This document shows positions 2,970 through 14,365 of a stretch of 64,000 nt of DNA, piece by piece (position 1 is the stretch's first letter; each line of letters starts with the position of its first letter). This DNA comes from Tardiphaga sp. P9-11 (lineage in GTDB: Bacteria > Pseudomonadota > Alphaproteobacteria > Rhizobiales > Xanthobacteraceae), in contig NZ_NPKQ01000004.1 of the NCBI RefSeq assembly GCF_008329525.1, positions 310,001-374,000 of the forward strand, in the 5' to 3' direction. Below the pieces are notes generated by a model that made no database searches, was not told the origin of the DNA, and saw only the letters and a list, made by a program, of their open reading frames with translations. A program made the translations under genes and the position numbers.

Positions 2970-3602
2970 CTAGCGTCCCGCCGGTTTGCCATCGATCAGC
3001 TTTTTCAGGCTGTCGCGGGCAGGTTTGGAATAGCCATCCGCGGCGCCGGGCGCTGTGGGCTCGGCGTCGGTCGTATCCTCATCGGGTTTGTTTTTCTTGA
3101 ACCTCTTCAAGATGGTGTTTTCAGGGTCATCCGGCAAGAGCGCCATCAGCCAATTGCCGGTCGATTCCAGCACAACCCGCGATTTGGCACCTGTGACCCA
3201 GTCCGGACGCTGCTTGTCCGGCACCAGCCATGAGAAGAACAGGAACGCGACGACCACGATCAGGAGGCCGCGGGCAAGGCCGAACAGGAAGCCCAGCGTG
3301 CGGTCCAGCGCACCGATGCGCGAATCCAGGATCATGTCGGAGATGCGGACGGTGATGATCGAGACCACGATCAGCGTGCCGATAAACACGCCGGCCACCA
3401 CCACGATGCTGGCGACGGTATCGTTGTTGAAATAAGTTTTAGCGGTCGGGAGCAGCTTCTGGAAAGCAAACAGGGTGACCAGCGCTGCGGCGCCCCAGGC
3501 TGCGATCGACAGGATCTCGCGCATGAAGCCGCGGACCATGGCCAGGAGGCCAGAGATCAGCATGACGCCGAGCAGGACAAGGTCGAGAATCGTGATCGGC
3601 AT
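2970..3602 (-). CDS. cvpA: CvpA family membrane protein
   Basis: 210 aa. Four hydrophobic segments (about residues 5-22, 28-48, 63-84 and 100-125) are followed by a charged cytoplasmic tail rich in Lys, Asp and Pro. The opening ITILDLVLLGVMLISGLLAM and the MVRGFMREILSIAAW segment are typical of the CvpA/colicin V production family. Its role is envelope-related but not firmly established; linkage to purF is the classical context and is seen here. The ATG at 3602 begins the first membrane helix directly. Confidence 0.92.
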   Translation of the reverse strand: MPITILDLVLLGVMLISGLLAMVRGFMREILSIAAWGAAALVTLFAFQKLLPTAKTYFNNDTVASIVVVAGVFIGTLIVVSIITVRISDMILDSRIGALDRTLGFLFGLARGLLIVVVAFLFFSWLVPDKQRPDWVTGAKSRVVLESTGNWLMALLPDDPENTILKRFKKNKPDEDTTDAEPTAPGAADGYSKPARDSLKKLIDGKPAGR

Positions 3603-3840
3603 CGGCTGGTCAGGTCCGCTCGTGAATCAGAAACCGCGAATCGGCACAGGCTGCCGCTTCAGGTGACGGTGATATGGCACGTCTCGCAAGGCCGGAAAAC
3701 CGCTATCGGCCGCAAGAGCACACCAGATCACACCATTGTTCCGCTTTGGGCAAAATGCCTTAACGGAGCGTGTTGCACATCTGCGCAGTTGGTTGCGCGC
3801 GCATTCTATAGCGGCCGTAGCCGCGCAGGTCACCCGCGCG

Positions 3841-5301
3841 TCAGCCGTCTCGGCGCTTGAATCGCGCCGGTGCGGTATTTTTCTCGTCATCTGTGCTTTT
3901 GCTGTTGTCGCGCGTGGGTTTTACGCCGCGCGCGGCGATGTCGGCGACCAGCGAGGTGAGGCCTCCGATGGTATTGAGAGACAGTCCGGCGTCGCCGCCG
4001 GGGTCACCGCGCGCCGATTCCGGCAGCACTGCCCGGCCGAAGCCGAGCTTCGCGGCTTCCTTGAGCCGCGCCGAGGTCTGCGCCACCGGGCGGACCGCAC
4101 CGGACAGCGAGATTTCGCCGAAATAGACCGCATCCGGCGGTAGCGGCGCGTTGCAGAGCGACGACACCAAAGCTGCGGCGGCGGCCATGTCGGCGGCGGG
4201 CTCGTTAATGCGCAATCCGCCGGCGACGTTGAAATAGACATCGTAGCCCGACAACTTGACCCCGCAATGCGCCTCCAGCACCGCTAGCACCATAGACAGG
4301 CGGGATGAATCCCAGCCGACCACCGCGCGGCGCGGAGTGCCCAGCGTTGTCGGCGCAACCAGAGCCTGCAGTTCCACCAGCACCGGGCGGGTGCCCTCCA
4401 TGCCGGCGAACACGGCGGTGCCGGGTGAACCCAAATCGCGATCCGACAAAAACAGTTCGGAGGGGTTCGACACCTCGCGCAGGCCCAGGCCGGTCATTTC
4501 GAACACGCCGATCTCGTCGGTCGGGCCGAAGCGGTTCTTCACCGCGCGCAAGATGCGGAACTGCTGCGAACCTTCGCCCTCGAAGGACATCACGGCATCC
4601 ACCATGTGCTCGACCACGCGGGGGCCGGCGATCTGGCCGTCCTTGGTGACATGGCCGACCAGGATGATGGTGGCGCCGGATTTCTTGGCGAAGCGAATGA
4701 GCGCCTGCGCCGAGGCGCGGACCTGGGTCACGGTGCCCGGCGCGGATTCCACCGTGTCGGTCCACATGGTCTGGATCGAGTCGATCACGATCAGCCGCGG
4801 CACCGTACCTTCGGACAGCGTGGCGACGATATCCTCCACCGAGGTTTCGGACGCGAGCTGCACCGAGGCGTCCGCGAGGCCCAGACGCGACGCGCGCAGC
4901 CGGACTTGCGCCACAGCTTCTTCGCCGGAGATGTAGACCACGCGGTGGCCGGCCCGCGCCATCAGGCTGGTGGCCTGCGTCAGCAAGGTCGACTTGCCGA
5001 TGCCGGGATCGCCGCCGATCAGCAGTACCGAGCCGCGCACGAAACCGCCGCCGGTGACGCGGTCGAGCTCGCCCATCCCCGAGGGAATGCGCGGTGCGTC
5101 ATTGCTCTGGCCGGTCAGGCTTTCGAGATTGAAGGTGCGCCCCTTGCGCTTGGAGCGCGCACTGACCGGAATCGTGGTGACGCCGGTGGTGTCCTCCTCG
5201 GCCAGCGAATTCCACTCGCCGCAGGCGTCGCACTTGCCCTGCCACTTGTTATAGGCGGCACCGCAATTCTGGCAGACGAAGGAGAGGAGGTTTTTGGCCA
5301 T
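3841..5301 (-). CDS. radA: DNA repair protein RadA
   Basis: 486 aa from the ATG at 5301. The reading frame stays open 16 codons further upstream, but MAKNLLSFVCQNCG is the conserved N-terminus. Residues 10-30 hold the four-Cys zinc finger (CQNC then CDAC). The Walker A is GGDPGIGKST, the RadA-specific KNRFG motif follows (VKNRFGPTDE), and the C-terminal half is the Lon-like domain. It is a RecA-family branch-migration ATPase acting in recombinational repair in the cytoplasm. A decayed copy of its first 30 codons lies 278 bp upstream in the same orientation. Confidence 0.96.
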   Translation of the reverse strand: MAKNLLSFVCQNCGAAYNKWQGKCDACGEWNSLAEEDTTGVTTIPVSARSKRKGRTFNLESLTGQSNDAPRIPSGMGELDRVTGGGFVRGSVLLIGGDPGIGKSTLLTQATSLMARAGHRVVYISGEEAVAQVRLRASRLGLADASVQLASETSVEDIVATLSEGTVPRLIVIDSIQTMWTDTVESAPGTVTQVRASAQALIRFAKKSGATIILVGHVTKDGQIAGPRVVEHMVDAVMSFEGEGSQQFRILRAVKNRFGPTDEIGVFEMTGLGLREVSNPSELFLSDRDLGSPGTAVFAGMEGTRPVLVELQALVAPTTLGTPRRAVVGWDSSRLSMVLAVLEAHCGVKLSGYDVYFNVAGGLRINEPAADMAAAAALVSSLCNAPLPPDAVYFGEISLSGAVRPVAQTSARLKEAAKLGFGRAVLPESARGDPGGDAGLSLNTIGGLTSLVADIAARGVKPTRDNSKSTDDEKNTAPARFKRRDG

Positions 5302-5817
5302 GAGGGTGAGGGAATCGGGGTTAGGGGGAGGTAGGGTGGTGGATAGCATGAAATGCCGGACGAAGCGGCCGTTTCATCGCAGTGCAGGGGCGCTCTGTAT
5401 GATCGGTTACTGTAATCCAACGACAGACGCCGGCCATCCAGCGGGGGTCTCAGCTACCTTGCTTCGAAGCTGCAGCGCTTGCGTCAATGGGGCTCGCCGC
5501 AGGAGGTGCATTTGCCATGTGGCGATTATACGCCTCGCCCGTAATTCCGGCAGACGAAAGAGAGGAGGGATTCTGCTATAAGCGGAGGGGGGAGTGCCTT
5601 TAAACCGGAGTGAGTTGGTCGATCTCACGATTTGAGCAAAGCGTGCGCACTCCAACCATAGCGAAGTCCTGGATGGTTGTTTCGCCACGCTCGGGCTTCC
5701 ATCTGTTCTTGCTTGATTTCATGTTAGCGCAGCGATCATTTGGCCGCGCCAAATGGGGCTGGCGATGGTCTGATCGCGCAAGTCCCCCATTCAGTGGTGT
5801 TCTCGTTCAATAATTGC
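5302..5817. other. Intergenic region with a radA scar
   Basis: About 515 bp without an intact gene. It separates the minus-strand purine/radA block from the plus-strand PIG-L/glycosyltransferase pair. The only recognisable content is the degenerate radA 5' fragment (5484-5579). The DNA to its right is visibly lower in GC than the core blocks. Short ORFs here are not convincing. Confidence 0.6.
5484..5579 (-). pseudogene. Degenerate duplicate of the radA N-terminal zinc-finger segment
   Basis: Read on the minus strand from 5579, the DNA starts ATA GCA GAA TCC CTC CTC, against ATG GCC AAA AAC CTC CTC in radA. It aligns codon for codon without gaps over about 30 codons. Visible matches include LLSFVC, then N, G, and GKC..CGE. 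The start codon is ATA instead of ATG, the second zinc Cys is Tyr, an in-frame TAA falls at codon 18 and a TGA at codon 32. This is a broken remnant, not a gene. It could be left from DNA integration at the 5' end of radA or from a local partial duplication. Confidence 0.8.
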
Positions 5818-6594
5818 ATGATGATTTCAACCAGTTCTGCATTTTTCTCCGCGCATCCGGGTCACGAGCTTCGAATCCATGGATGGCTATCCCAACAGAA
5901 ACCGCTCTGCTTCGTTCTGACCACGGGGGCCCGCTCCGGCACCGATAGCGCAAGATTGGTGGCCACGTCGGATCTGATCGAGTCCATGAGTGGGCGGCGC
6001 GCCAGCATATTTGGCGATCTCTTGGACCGCGAGTTGTATTCACAGGTCCTGGCAGGCGATGCATCGCGAATGGAGCATCTCGTCCGCGTGACCATTAATA
6101 CCTTGATTGCAAATGAGGTCACGGTTCTGGTTGTCGATGGATGGCAGCTTTATTCGGTGAGCCATGATCTGGCTCATGTCATGGGGCGGATCGCCGCGCA
6201 GCACGCCTCGCTAGCTCTGAAAAGAGAAATAACGGTGCTCCAATATATGGTTGTTCCAAACGCAATCTCTGGCGCCAGCGATATGGGAAAGTGTGTCGGT
6301 GTCGTCGAACTATCGGAGGACGAACTTCGTGCGAAGCAACGCGCTATCGAGGGATATCCCGGGATAGATGGAGAGAGAGAGGAAATCGCGAAAATTGAAG
6401 GTCTGCATGCTTTGGGTGCGGAGTATTTCTTCGTGCCTCCGGATCTCAAGCTCTTGCTGGAGAAACCGCAGATCAAGCCGCTTTATGAGCAGTACGGCGA
6501 AGAACGCGTTCAAAGAGGGGTTTATCGCGAGGTTATCCGGTGGAGGCATGTTGAAGCTATCCTCGCCCAGTTGGCGAAGAGTTTCGAAATTTGA
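5818..6594 (+). CDS. PIG-L-like (LmbE-related) protein with altered metal motif
   Basis: About 258 aa from the ATG at 5818 (ATG at 5821 equally possible). The longer frame from 5740 adds an unconvincing leader. The N-terminus SAFFSAHPGHELRIHGWL sits where PIG-L/LmbE deacetylases have AHPDDE; here the two Asp are Gly15 and His16. A later SHDLAHV could supply another metal His. Those enzymes remove N-acetyl groups from sugars using zinc, so an altered mechanism or loss of activity is possible. The stop lies 3 bp before a glycosyltransferase gene, so the two are probably co-translated. The fold assignment rests on motif resemblance only. The GC content is below that of its neighbours. Confidence 0.55.
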   Translation: MMISTSSAFFSAHPGHELRIHGWLSQQKPLCFVLTTGARSGTDSARLVATSDLIESMSGRRASIFGDLLDRELYSQVLAGDASRMEHLVRVTINTLIANEVTVLVVDGWQLYSVSHDLAHVMGRIAAQHASLALKREITVLQYMVVPNAISGASDMGKCVGVVELSEDELRAKQRAIEGYPGIDGEREEIAKIEGLHALGAEYFFVPPDLKLLLEKPQIKPLYEQYGEERVQRGVYREVIRWRHVEAILAQLAKSFEI

Positions 6595-6597
6595 AGA

Positions 6598-7803
6598 ATG
6601 AAGATCCTCTTCACAAATATCCAGCTCTCGCACAGGTCTGGCACCGAAATTGTCGTCCGGGATCTGGCTCAAAGGTTTGGCGAGGCAGGTCACGAGGTCA
6701 CCATATATGCTCCTGCGCTAGGCGAATTCGCGAATGAAGTGCGATCTGACGATATCCGGGTGATCGACGATTTGCGGGAATTCGATGGCGTTCCCGACAT
6801 CATCCATGGACATCACACGCTGCCGACAGCTGAAGCTATCATCGCGTTTCCCTCCGTGCCCGCAATATGGGTCTGTCACGGTGCGCAGTCCTGGTTTGAT
6901 CAGCTTCCTCCCTTTACGCAGGTGAGGCGCATTTTTGCTGTTGATGACACGTGTCGTTCCCGCCTCGTAACCGAAGGGGTGGCGCCTGAGAGGATCGACA
7001 TTTTGCCCAATGCGGTCGATCTGAGACGATTTCAGACGCGCACCACGCCTCTGCCGGCGCGGCCGGCGCGTGCCGTTTCCCTGGTCAAGCATAGCGGCCC
7101 GATTGAGCTGATCGTTGAAGCCTGCCGGGTCAAAGGCATCCCGCTCGAATTACACGGACACGGGGTTGGCCGGCCAATCGGCGATATCGAGCGGGTCTTC
7201 GCAGAAAACGATCTCGTTTTCGCGACAGCGCGAACGGCGCTGGAAGCGATGGCGGTCGGTGCGGCCGTCATACTGGTCGATGGTCGCGGTTTCGGCGGGC
7301 TCGTGACGTCCCGGAATTTCGAAAACGGACGTCGGCTGAATTTCGGTCTGGGTCTGCTGAAACGCGATCCGACGCTGGAATTGTTGATCGGTGCAATAGA
7401 AGATTACGATCCACTGGATGCAGCGGTCGTCAGCAAAAAGGTGCGCTCGGAGGCAGGCCTGGATTGCCTGGTAGCTCGGCTTGAAGGCATCTACTCATCG
7501 ACGATCTCCCAATGGCGACCTGAGCGGGATTTTAACCGGGAGACGTTTCGCGCCGAGCAGATCAAATTCAACAGTGACTGGTTACCCCGGACGCAAGCCG
7601 GAATCCCCTGGATGGAAGAGGTGCAGCGATTGCGAAACCAGGCGACCGAGCTGAATGATGTGTTAGCACGTCGCACGATCGAGCTATCTGATCGTTCCAT
7701 CGAGCTATCCGAGTGTAAAAGAGTGGTTCGATCATACGAATCCGCACGCTCTGTTCGATTTGCGAGAAAGTTGCGTCAATGGGCGAGATTCTGGCGTGGT
7801 TGA
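6598..7803 (+). CDS. GT4-type glycosyltransferase with C-terminal coiled coil
   Basis: 401 aa. MKILFTNIQLSHRSGTEIVV with DLAQRFGEAGHEVTIYAP is the usual GT-B N-terminal opening. VDDTCRSRLVTEGV with DILPNAVDLRRF marks the domain linker, and TARTALEAMAVGAAVI is the donor-side segment of the GT4 family. The GlcNAc/mannose-type E(x7)E motif is not clear. Residues about 335-380 form a heptad-rich segment containing two IELSxRS-like repeats, then a basic tail. It starts 3 bp after the PIG-L-like gene, which suggests a two-gene unit acting on one glycan. Lower GC than flanking core genes suggests transfer. Confidence 0.75.
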   Translation: MKILFTNIQLSHRSGTEIVVRDLAQRFGEAGHEVTIYAPALGEFANEVRSDDIRVIDDLREFDGVPDIIHGHHTLPTAEAIIAFPSVPAIWVCHGAQSWFDQLPPFTQVRRIFAVDDTCRSRLVTEGVAPERIDILPNAVDLRRFQTRTTPLPARPARAVSLVKHSGPIELIVEACRVKGIPLELHGHGVGRPIGDIERVFAENDLVFATARTALEAMAVGAAVILVDGRGFGGLVTSRNFENGRRLNFGLGLLKRDPTLELLIGAIEDYDPLDAAVVSKKVRSEAGLDCLVARLEGIYSSTISQWRPERDFNRETFRAEQIKFNSDWLPRTQAGIPWMEEVQRLRNQATELNDVLARRTIELSDRSIELSECKRVVRSYESARSVRFARKLRQWARFWRG

Positions 7804-7932
7804 GCTCTCTGTGTGCGATGCATTGCTATCGAGCGTGCACAGTTCCAGATACGTCCTTTGAAACCTGAGGTTTGAGAGAACCGCCCTCATCAATTCTTAA
7901 GCACGTTCATCAAGGTAAATATCAGGACCGCG

Positions 7933-7960
7933 TTGACCGGCAGTGATGCTTGGCTAAGTG
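7933..7960 (+). promoter_or_regulatory. Candidate sigma-70-type promoter
   Basis: TTGACC (7933-7938) and TAAGTG (7955-7960), 16 bp apart, lie 57 bp upstream of the secreted Cys-rich protein. The -10 is poor, so this is only a candidate. Confidence 0.3.
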
Positions 7961-8016
7961 TCGCGCATCAAAGCGATACGCCTCCATTTCAAACCAGCTC
8001 GCCACGGGACCTGATC

Positions 8017-8430
8017 ATGAAAAAATTGATTGCTGCTGCACTGTTCGCCACTGTCGCCGGAATGGCGATGCCCGGTGTTGCCTCGGCAGGCTGCTATAAT
8101 TGTTACGCGCCGCCGCCGCCGTGCCAGACCTGCTATCAGCAGCAAGTGGTGCCGCCGCAGTATCGCACCGTCGAAGAGACGGTGATGGTGGCTCCCGGCC
8201 GCACCGTCCGACATCGCACGCCGGCCCAGTACGAAACCGTGATGGTGCCGAAGACCGTAATGGTCGCACCGGCGCGCGTCGACTACGAGCGGATCCCGGC
8301 GCAATACGCCACCCAGCACCGCGTTCAGATGGTCGCACCGGCGCAGGTCTATTACGCACCGGTGCAGCAGGGCTGCTCGACCTGCAATCGCGGCTTCAAC
8401 TTCGGCTCAAGCTACGGATACGGCTACTAA
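8017..8430 (+). CDS. Small secreted Cys/Pro-rich repeat protein
   Basis: 137 aa from the ATG at 8017, preceded by a GGGA-type site; a longer frame from 7933 would put residues ahead of an obvious signal peptide. MKKLIAAALFATVAGMAMP through GVASA is a Sec signal with cleavage after ASA. The mature protein opens with CYNCYAPPPPCQTC and then repeats a unit of the type (E/K)TVMVAP..V..RxPAQYxT two to three times. It ends CSTCNRGFNFGSSYGYGY. The repeats suggest a structural or surface role, with Cys pairs for disulfides. I do not recognise a characterised homologue. A strong hairpin follows the stop. Confidence 0.7.
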   Translation: MKKLIAAALFATVAGMAMPGVASAGCYNCYAPPPPCQTCYQQQVVPPQYRTVEETVMVAPGRTVRHRTPAQYETVMVPKTVMVAPARVDYERIPAQYATQHRVQMVAPAQVYYAPVQQGCSTCNRGFNFGSSYGYGY

Positions 8431-8460
8431 GCCGCGGATAGCCCAGATTTTCAGGACTGC

Positions 8461-8486
8461 AATCGGCCGCCTCAGGGCGGCCGATT
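8461..8486 (+). terminator. Hairpin terminator
   Basis: AATCGGCCGCC (8461-8471) and GGCGGCCGATT (8476-8486) form a perfect 11-bp stem around a TCAG loop, 30 bp after the stop of the secreted repeat protein. The trailing bases are GGCGTTTGG, so the U-tract is weak. Confidence 0.65.
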
Positions 8487-8551
8487 GGCGTTTGGGGGGA
8501 GGTCGCCGATGCGGCGGTCAGGATAAACCGCCCTGGGCTTTCCTGCATGCG

Positions 8552-8572
8552 GTGCATATATGTTTCATGCAC
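8552..8572. promoter_or_regulatory. Operator-like inverted repeat before the ParD-like gene
   Basis: GTGCAT (8552-8557), nine bases, then ATGCAC (8567-8572). It lies 21 bp upstream of the GTG start of the ParD-like gene and overlaps an AT-rich TATATG that could be a -10. Ribbon-helix-helix antitoxins usually bind such dyads in their own promoter, so autoregulation is inferred. Confidence 0.4.
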
Positions 8573-8593
8573 GAATCATATACGGAGGTCCGC

Positions 8594-8806
8594 GTGGGCA
8601 TTGTGAACATCGATGACGATCTGCACGATCAGGTGCGCAAGGCCAGCACCGTATCGTTTCGGTCGATCAATGCGCAGGCCGCCTATTGGATCAAGATCGG
8701 CATGCTGTGCGAGACCAATCCGACGCTCAGTTTCAACGAGATCATAAAGCGCGAACTTAGCTCTGCGGGCGTTTCGGCTCAGCCGATGGCTGTCGGTGCA
8801 GCATGA
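8594..8806 (+). CDS. ParD-like antitoxin-family protein
   Basis: 70 aa. I place the start at the GTG at 8594 because ACGGAGG lies 5 bases upstream; an ATG at 8569 and a frame from 8492 lack this. The sequence VGIVNIDDDLHDQVRKAS followed by RSINAQAAYWIKIGML and NPTLSFNEIIKREL is the ParD_like family (a short ribbon-helix-helix-type protein). It is not paired with a ParE-type toxin. Its stop overlaps the start of a methionine aminopeptidase gene (ATGA), implying translational coupling. The last dozen residues are a low-complexity Ala/Gly/Val tail. A DNA-binding or repressor role is inferred from the fold. Confidence 0.75.
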   Translation: MGIVNIDDDLHDQVRKASTVSFRSINAQAAYWIKIGMLCETNPTLSFNEIIKRELSSAGVSAQPMAVGAA

Positions 8807-9582
8807 CGAAGCGGCCCGAAGAACTGGCGTTGCTGGCTGAAGCCGGCCGGCTGCTGGCGTCCGTCTTCGGTCTGCTGGATCGAACCTCGCTCGCCGGCAT
8901 GTCGACACTTCAGATCGACGAGATGGTCGAGCGATTCATCGTCCACGATCTTCAGGCCCGCCCCGCGAGCAAGGGCCAATATGGCTATGGCTTTGTGTTG
9001 AATGCCTCGGTGAATGACGTGGTCTGCCACGGTGTTCCATCGCCATCGCACGTGCTTCGCGACGGCGACATCGTCAATCTCGACATCACGCTCGAGAAGA
9101 ACGGTTATATCGCAGATTCCAGCAAGACCTATCTCGTTGGCGAGGTGAATCCGGCCGCCAGGAGGTTGGTCCAGACCACCTATGAGGCGATGTGGATGGG
9201 CATTCAGGCGGTTCGCCCAGGCGCGCGGCTCGGAGACATCGGCTGGGCGATCGAACGACATGCAAAGCGCAATGGCTATTCGGTGGTGCGCGAATATTGC
9301 GGTCACGGCATCGGCCGCAAGATGCATGAAGAGCCGCAGGTGATGCATTTCGGCAAGCCGGGCACTGGCCTCGCCTTGCGCGAGGGCATGGTGTTCACGA
9401 TCGAGCCGATGCTCAATCGCGGCCGACGGACTGTGAAAACAGAGGCGGACGGTTGGACCGTTGTGACGAGAGACGGATCGCTGTCCGCACAGTTCGAGCA
9501 CACCGTTGCCGTGACTGCTTCCGGCGTGTCGGTGCTGACGTTGCGTCCGGACGAACCGGGGCGTGGACTTATAAGCGTGTAG
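8803..9582 (+). CDS. map: Type I methionine aminopeptidase
   Basis: 259 aa. Removes the initiator Met from nascent proteins in the cytoplasm using a dinuclear metal centre. All five ligands are visible: Asp94 (VNLDIT), Asp105 (IADSSK), His168 (CGHGIG), Glu201 (FTIEPM) and Glu232 (QFEHT); His76 (VCHGVPS) is the substrate-binding His. It is therefore predicted active. The start overlaps the ParD-like stop by four bases. Bacteria of this group usually have a housekeeping map elsewhere, so this may be a second copy with a special role; that is inference. Confidence 0.93.
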   Translation: MTKRPEELALLAEAGRLLASVFGLLDRTSLAGMSTLQIDEMVERFIVHDLQARPASKGQYGYGFVLNASVNDVVCHGVPSPSHVLRDGDIVNLDITLEKNGYIADSSKTYLVGEVNPAARRLVQTTYEAMWMGIQAVRPGARLGDIGWAIERHAKRNGYSVVREYCGHGIGRKMHEEPQVMHFGKPGTGLALREGMVFTIEPMLNRGRRTVKTEADGWTVVTRDGSLSAQFEHTVAVTASGVSVLTLRPDEPGRGLISV

Positions 9583-13636: not shown

Positions 13637-14365
13637 CTAAATCAGCGCCATGCCCGACAGCACCATACTCACGCCTGCCACGATCATGATGGCGTCCATG
13701 ACCAGGCGGAACGCCTCGACGCTCAGCTTCAGCACGTAGCGTTTGGCGATGAACGCGCCGGCCATCAGCGACGCACCGGCGATCAGGCCTTTCACCAGCA
13801 CGTCGGTATTGAGCGCGCCGAATTGCTGGAAGGTGACGGACTTGCTGAGATAGAGGCCGAGCGAACTCGCGGCTTCGGTGGCGAGGAAGGCGCCCTTGGC
13901 GAGGCCGTAAAACAGAAACAGCGGCACGCTCAGGGGACCGCTGGAGACGACAATGCCGGTGAGATAGCCGATGATCGCGCCGCCAAGCGCGAGTTGCCAC
14001 AGACCGATGGTGAAGGAGCGCCGCGCCAGCCAGTGGCGCAGCGGCACCATGGCGATGAAAAAAAGGCCGATGGTGAGATCGACCACGTGTGACGGCAGCA
14101 CCAGCAGCGTCCGTGCGCCCAGGGCTGCTGCGGGAACGCCGGTGAGCGAATAGGCTGCGGTGGCGCGCCAGTCGACCTCGCGCCACCAGGCCGCGATGCG
14201 CGAGAGATTGGACATCACGGCGGCGATGGCCATGATCGGCACGGCCTGCTTGGGGCCGAATTCATAGACCAGCACCGGCATCAGCATGATCGACGAGCCG
14301 GTGCCGACGATCCCGGAGATGGTGCCGGCGATCAGGCCGACCGTGCAGACGAAGATAAAGTTCAC
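13637..14365 (-). CDS. TSUP family permease (TauE/SafE)
   Basis: About 242 aa from a GTG at 14365. The frame continues upstream to 14488, but those 41 residues are polar and Arg/Pro-rich, while VNFIFVCTVGLIAGTISGIV begins the first helix of this family. Seven to eight hydrophobic segments follow, including the GTGSSIMLMPVL half-repeat and the second repeat around SSGPLSVPLFLFYGL. The family exports sulfite, sulfoacetate or related organosulfur anions across the inner membrane; the substrate here is unknown. It lies just right of the accessory block and is not close to sulfur genes. Confidence 0.85.
   Translation of the reverse strand: MNFIFVCTVGLIAGTISGIVGTGSSIMLMPVLVYEFGPKQAVPIMAIAAVMSNLSRIAAWWREVDWRATAAYSLTGVPAAALGARTLLVLPSHVVDLTIGLFFIAMVPLRHWLARRSFTIGLWQLALGGAIIGYLTGIVVSSGPLSVPLFLFYGLAKGAFLATEAASSLGLYLSKSVTFQQFGALNTDVLVKGLIAGASLMAGAFIAKRYVLKLSVEAFRLVMDAIMIVAGVSMVLSGMALI

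Follow-up and report, generated by a model that had tools for sequence, protein, structure and literature searches.

A decayed radA 5′ end with codons of other lineages at the edge of a strain-specific gene block in Tardiphaga sp. P9-11

The window analyzed here, a single stretch of 64,000 nucleotides, contains radA within the gene order purF-like, cvpA-like, radA, a two-gene block, a small-protein gene (7933-8430), a ParD-like gene and methionyl aminopeptidase, followed by GGDEF/EAL-like, permease-like, alr-like and dnaB-like genes. Family searches named radA, the ParD-like gene and methionyl aminopeptidase; the purF-like, cvpA-like, GGDEF/EAL-like, permease-like, alr-like and dnaB-like genes were named by eye from their open reading frames, and are presumed to be what these labels say. 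The features between radA and the small-protein gene are as follows.

3841-5301, reverse strand: intact radA, 486 aa, matching NCBIfam TIGR00416 (DNA repair protein RadA) with E 1.8e-164; native-looking by its grouping.
5302-5369, reverse strand: radA upstream stretch with TGCTAT at –47, common to the related genomes G017 and G016; outer edge approximate.
5370-5483, no strand: non-coding, from the radA upstream stretch to the remnant; no likeness to decayed radA codons 28-133 above that of shuffles.
5484-5582, reverse strand: decayed radA 5′ end (about 30 codons), recognized by alignment; start codon and second zinc Cys lost, with a +1/–1 frameshift pair.
5583-5820, no strand: non-coding, from the remnant to the cargo genes; 5583-5740 has no clear likeness to any radA upstream region.
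5821-6594, forward strand: cargo gene 1, PIG-L/LmbE-fold deacetylase-like protein by predicted structure, with an HPGHE motif.
6598-7803, forward strand: cargo gene 2, family-4 glycosyltransferase (PF13439).
7883-8430, forward strand: right-hand anchor, made up of ORF 7933-8430, which by eye encodes a small, secreted-looking protein rich in Cys and Tyr, and the region upstream of it; matched in 11 of 15 genus loci.

A strain-specific block (approximately 5370-7882) carries the deacetylase-like gene and the glycosyltransferase gene, with the remnant at its edge. The preliminary description had placed the remnant at the border of a lower-G+C block, and the base composition agrees: in 500-bp windows the block has 52-60% G+C, compared to 62-68% over 3501-5500. 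The DNA search of the genus covered 18 genomes including our own, 15 of which matched, and 15 other loci from 14 genomes were compared. None of these 15 radA loci matched the block (E 1e-5, at least 60 bp, radA itself aside). Both flanks were present without the block segment in 11 of the 15, where 78-879 bp separate radA from the right-hand anchor (~7880-7895) compared to 2562 bp here. In G016, G008 and G010 the alignment resumes after radA only at about 13,664-13,685. The second locus of G012 matches nothing more over the 2.3 kb that remain of it. When 14 of the 15 locus intervals were compared with 5250-7950, only matches of 12-16 nt (E 0.06 or worse) were found beyond radA and the edges. 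In the genus, the radA-to-anchor site holds a GDSL-hydrolase-like ORF (named by eye) in G017, G005 and G002 (L019, L029, L031) and a different small secreted-looking ORF in G003, G004 and G015 (L020-L022). Further to the right, the segment ~8517-9530 (the ParD-like ORF and type I methionyl aminopeptidase) has a match in G004 and G015 and is missing at the same place in G017 and G003.

The cargo gene 1 protein had no Pfam or NCBIfam match, and no PDB sequence match at E up to 1. Its start was chosen by eye as the second of two adjacent methionines, the longest open reading frame running from 5740. A structure model built from five sequences (mean pLDDT 84.8, pTM 0.86) matched PIG-L-type deacetylases such as the teicoplanin deacetylase Orf2 and BC1534 (best E 1.2e-5), with 12 chains at E up to 0.001 and TM-scores of about 0.5 by query length. 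Residues H12, H15, E16, D106, H115 and D116 are invariant, and occupy what we take to be the putative metal-binding positions of the PIG-L fold; the HPGHE motif stands where the usual motif is presumably HPDDE. Among 296 genomes of the family, cargo gene 1 matched in 5 and cargo gene 2 in 15 (our own included in both), and within the genus either gene was found only in our genome (G000); neither matched in the other 17 genus genomes, some of which are incomplete. Across the order, the cargo gene 1 protein matched in 5 of 397 genomes, our own included, the best other match being at 46%. The glycosyltransferase, searched against plasmids, gave no match. The two genes are neighbors in the same order in G178 and G244, which belong to another genus (44-53% identity), and in G261 and G211 they are close together in a divergent arrangement. 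No radA was present in any of the four 20-kb stretches examined. Entry of foreign DNA on the 5′ side of radA, as had been proposed, is supported by the absence of the block from the 15 genus loci and of its genes from the 17 other genomes. The block's two genes, for a PIG-L-fold protein and a GT4, include no integrase or transposase, the whole window has no tRNA gene, and for direct repeats at the block ends (3800-9000, 20 of the 23 repeat families listed) we found only short pairs of 70-75% identity spanning the block, for example 5303-5332 with 8474-8503.

The likeness of the remnant to the radA 5′ end is well above chance. The local alignment (match 2, mismatch –3) scored 59, relative to a mean of 17.7 and a maximum of 31 in 2000 dinucleotide shuffles, so that the similarity claimed in the preliminary description is real. 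The remnant lies 183-281 bp upstream of the radA start at 5301 and, again as described, in the same orientation, and its ungapped pieces, 5539-5582 (80%) and 5493-5519 (81%), are each offset by 278 bp from radA. The alignment likewise reproduces ATA in place of the ATG start codon, the retained LLSFVC, GKC and CGE, and the loss of one zinc Cys, namely Cys13, the second Cys of the zinc ribbon (TGC to TAC, giving Tyr). The alignment does not run codon for codon, as had been thought, since a +1 indel is followed by a compensating –1 indel about 20 nt away. Both of the stops that had been counted are present: the TAA sits inside the 20-nt shifted stretch and is a product of the +1/–1 shift, and the TGA (5484-5486) is codon 32, past the clear similarity. 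Searched against our own genome, 5320-5740 matched itself and radA, and nothing else. Similarity did not extend inward, in that 5354-5490 scored 19 against radA codons 28-133, a value reached by 18 of 40 shuffles, and 5370-5483 gave no convincing match in our own genome or those of 20 relatives, the best one covering 19 bases at E 0.02. On the other side, 5583-5740 scored a borderline 21 against radA upstream regions, with 1 of 40 shuffles as high.

A remnant shared by all relatives without an adjacent insertion, named at the outset as an outcome that would speak against an integration scar, was not observed: no remnant lies upstream of radA in any of the 15 related genus loci (0/15). A wider scan for remnant-type stubs took in as much as 3.5 kb of DNA upstream of radA at each of 122 other loci, with the radA start of each locus as the query; seven of these are second stretches of genus genomes already included, and two more of less than 100 bp were dropped. 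The best score, 33, came from L075 (a G+C-rich match of 33 bp). None of 500 random sequences scored as high, although this was the best among 122 loci; our own locus scored 57. With the remnant as the query, the best same-strand score among the 122 loci was 31 and the best opposite-strand score 33, and no comparable stretch was found. At the level of whole genomes, the remnant found a match in 60 of the 296 genomes of the family and in 214 of the 265 from genus g25. All had a single match but for three with two: our own, G012 (whose radA is on two contigs) and G508 (with radA ends at contig edges). The two radA 5′ ends of G508 (L191, L193) differ, and both lie at contig edges, either from a second strain in the assembly or as a real partial copy.

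That the remnant serves a present function, as a leader, regulatory RNA, att site or small protein, is barely credible. An Rfam search of 5000-8500 at E up to 0.1 found no match, the 122 loci hold nothing comparable upstream of radA, and the changes are even over codon positions: relative to L178, the closest row of our tree, the differences number 5, 6 and 7 at positions 1, 2 and 3, as in a neutral remnant. We read the remnant as a non-functional scar, probably inert now, with radA retaining its own start and upstream stretch.

To the side of radA, the upstream stretch aligns with that of G017 to ~5369 and more weakly beyond, and it aligns with that of G016 too; the radA upstream regions of G003, G004 and G015 are of another type, with AGAACAAA at –42. 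Over 3800-5400 and 7800-8600, identity of radA and the right-hand anchor to four close relatives is 0.82-0.98 in 200-bp windows, and no foreign tract is visible in either by this measure. At the radA 5′ end (two windows, 5000-5400), identity to the four closest relatives is 0.93-0.96, and in the windows over 3800-5000 it is 0.84-0.98. In a maximum-likelihood (ML) tree the intact radA groups with these four, and the RadA N-terminus of our strain, G017, G003, G004 and G015 is in common (MAKNLLSFVC...YNKWQGKCDACGEW; G004 has Ser for Gly28). From these comparisons, the intact N-terminus looks native: both this end and 5302-~5369 have their match in the closest relatives. Within 160 bp upstream of radA, two unlike types were seen in the genus, AGAACAAA in 10 of 16 loci and TGCTAT near –40 in 4 (our own, G017, G016 and G013), with neither type in the other 2; by eye, their spread is discordant with the radA tree, as if the upstream region itself had been exchanged.

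The preliminary description had suggested that incoming DNA brought radA a new N-terminus and left the old one to decay. The remnant and the intact copy are indeed of different radA types, as displacement of the native end would predict, but the intact 5′ end is as similar to the four closest relatives as the remainder of radA is, and groups with them, and it is the remnant that carries the states of other lineages. A displaced native N-terminus is thus highly improbable, and the proposed direction is probably reversed: it is the remnant, not the working copy, that looks foreign.

The other-lineage states are seen at codons Ser4, Arg19 and Ser26 of the remnant, where our own clade has Asn, Lys and Ala. 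Among 30 other rows, Arg-type bases occur at codon 19 in 25 and a Ser-type base at codon 26 in 24. Codon 5 of the remnant is CTC (Leu), as in 5 of 5 own-clade genomes and in 0 of the 30 others. At the 15 sites in the first 90 nt that distinguish our own clade from a consensus of 20 Bradyrhizobium/g25 rows, the remnant follows the consensus at 11 and our own clade at 4. Simulated decay from our own radA to an equal number of differences (26) was as extreme in 0 of 20,000 runs, and decay from the 20-row consensus gave this count or a lower one in 1887 of 20,000. The 20 rows were picked after the best matches were known; a consensus of all tree rows outside our own clade agrees, with 10 sites to 4, and 0 and 1688 of 20,000 runs. 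The corresponding values were 7 to 4 sites, and 1 and 1152 runs, with G016 as the source (65/89 identity), and 11 to 5 sites, and 0 and 806 runs, with G013, a basal member of the genus. Identity of the remnant is 71/89 to L178, the best tree row, 69/89 to the 20-row consensus, 68/89 to G013 and 63/89 to our own radA. Its best DNA matches are in eight g25 genomes (83% over 80 bases), and our own radA matches at 75% over 76.

The ML tree places the remnant within the 20-row set (support 96/96) on a long terminal branch (1.31). It holds 48 genes, hand-picked from more than 130 radA loci, with the last 6 columns of the remnant trimmed; the row L030 (G008) was dropped because a frameshift gave it a branch length of 10. 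The radA of G008, a single-contig genome, is frameshifted ~260 nt in, which is either a real loss or a sequencing error. "Bradyrhizobium-like" denotes ten named Bradyrhizobium rows that group with ten g25 rows, while L066 (Bradyrhizobium) and L051 (g25) fall outside. In the AU test on 90 columns, placement as sister of our own radA (p 0.391), or within its five-genome clade (0.389) or its nine-genome clade (0.40), was not rejected. The AU test is undecided, and it and the simulations therefore differ in strength. On the codon states, we trust that the remnant does not derive from the present radA type of our own strain, a trust that we would not extend to any named donor.

A simple local duplication had been offered as the alternative in the preliminary description. 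For a recent copy of our own radA 5′ end, made by slippage or template switching and since decayed, the same orientation and an offset of only 278 bp would be natural, codon 5 CTC is shared with our own clade, and the AU test is compatible. The codon states disfavor it: none of the simulated decays from our own sequence matched them, and AAC-AAG to AAT-CGC alone requires four changes, all to the states of other lineages. The decay also exceeds the expectation since the split from the closest relatives. The remnant differs from L178 by 11 changes at codon positions 1+2, where ~4.9 would be expected since the split from G003, G004 and G015 (P 0.012), taking half the mean four-fold divergence of radA from these three; with the neutral rate doubled, the expectation is 9.9 (P 0.40). 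We consider a recent duplication quite unlikely. The excess decay means that the stub may have been broken before its arrival, or may be older than the split and have been lost in the siblings.

An old native relic would accommodate the second of these possibilities. Here, an ancestral radA 5′ end of the genus would have been duplicated or left behind before our own clade acquired Lys and Ala, and lost from the sampled relatives by upstream exchange. The Arg/Ser codons are also found in G016, G013, G012, G008 and G010, of the genus and outside our own clade; G013 nearly equals the Bradyrhizobium/g25 consensus as a source (68/89; 11/16 sites); the decay amounts to ~0.19 per site at positions 1+2, as much as half of the four-fold divergence from G001 (0.335); and the site turns over, with three unlike fillings in the five closest genomes. 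Against this, at least three separate losses would be needed among the eight relatives in the nine-genome clade, it would be a coincidence that the relic borders a strain-specific block, and G016 fits less well (7/11 sites, 65/89). We regard a native relic as a rather unlikely origin, though one to be taken seriously.

On balance, we favor somewhat the interpretation that the remnant is a donor radA stub that came in with the block by homology-assisted illegitimate recombination. The donor would be a related bacterium whose radA had the Arg19/Ser26 codons, either Bradyrhizobium-like or from a basal branch of our own genus. The incoming segment would have carried the donor radA 5′ stub, the PIG-L-like deacetylase gene and the glycosyltransferase gene, and would have taken the place of the DNA that separated radA from the small gene at 7933. 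The right join was most likely made by homologous recombination on the conserved 7883+ side; this flank is conserved in much of the genus, and window identity reveals no imported tract in it. The left junction falls between ~5370 and 5484, next to the stub, and this join, directly outside the native radA upstream stretch, may have needed hardly any homology or none; joined in this way, the donor stub would therefore have been left stranded ~180 bp ahead of the intact radA, where it then decayed. There is no clear radA upstream homology beside the remnant that would tie its arrival to that of the cargo; in our searches, no donor genome with the block adjoining radA was found. The aligned bases number only ~90, and the AU result, the near-equal fit of G013 as a source, codon 5 CTC as in our own clade and the heavy decay also count against import.

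The scar is of an ordinary kind, a single short trace of a common gene-exchange process. As a long shot, the radA 5′ intergenic site might be a recurrent exchange point that works without mobile-element genes, with radA itself as the anchor and stubs repeatedly stranded and decaying; if so, decaying radA stubs could be read as dated records of cargo donors. Even singly, a stub of a neighboring core gene holds phylogenetic information on the donor that the cargo does not give. Nor is it a safe assumption that the old copy decays and the new copy works, as the working radA here looks native.

Several known systems are comparable. In homology-facilitated illegitimate recombination (HFIR), as outlined in PMC3240628, one homologous and one non-homologous join add short foreign DNA to a chromosome. 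We propose the same pattern of joins for the radA scar, with the difference that here it is read from a single scar. At the dimorphic loci and small variable segments of Escherichia coli, unrelated alternatives occupy one place, mostly without known mobile elements, and homology-assisted illegitimate recombination has been proposed in the account of PMC2884548; compared to these, the radA site keeps a readable stub of the neighboring core gene on one side. Exchange hotspots with gene turnover between fixed core genes and without recognized mobile elements, for which PMC5635113 puts forward double recombination at the flanking core genes, resemble the radA site in that turnover, a comparison made here by interval lengths alone. 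In the type VI secretion (T6SS) clusters of Vibrio cholerae, the insertion of a new module leaves an orphan immunity gene or a displaced effector end, and an HFIR-like route is suggested in the description given by PMC5361080. There, as here, a broken homologue is left beside another copy after an insertion; the leftover in V. cholerae is the displaced resident, whereas the radA leftover looks like the incomer.
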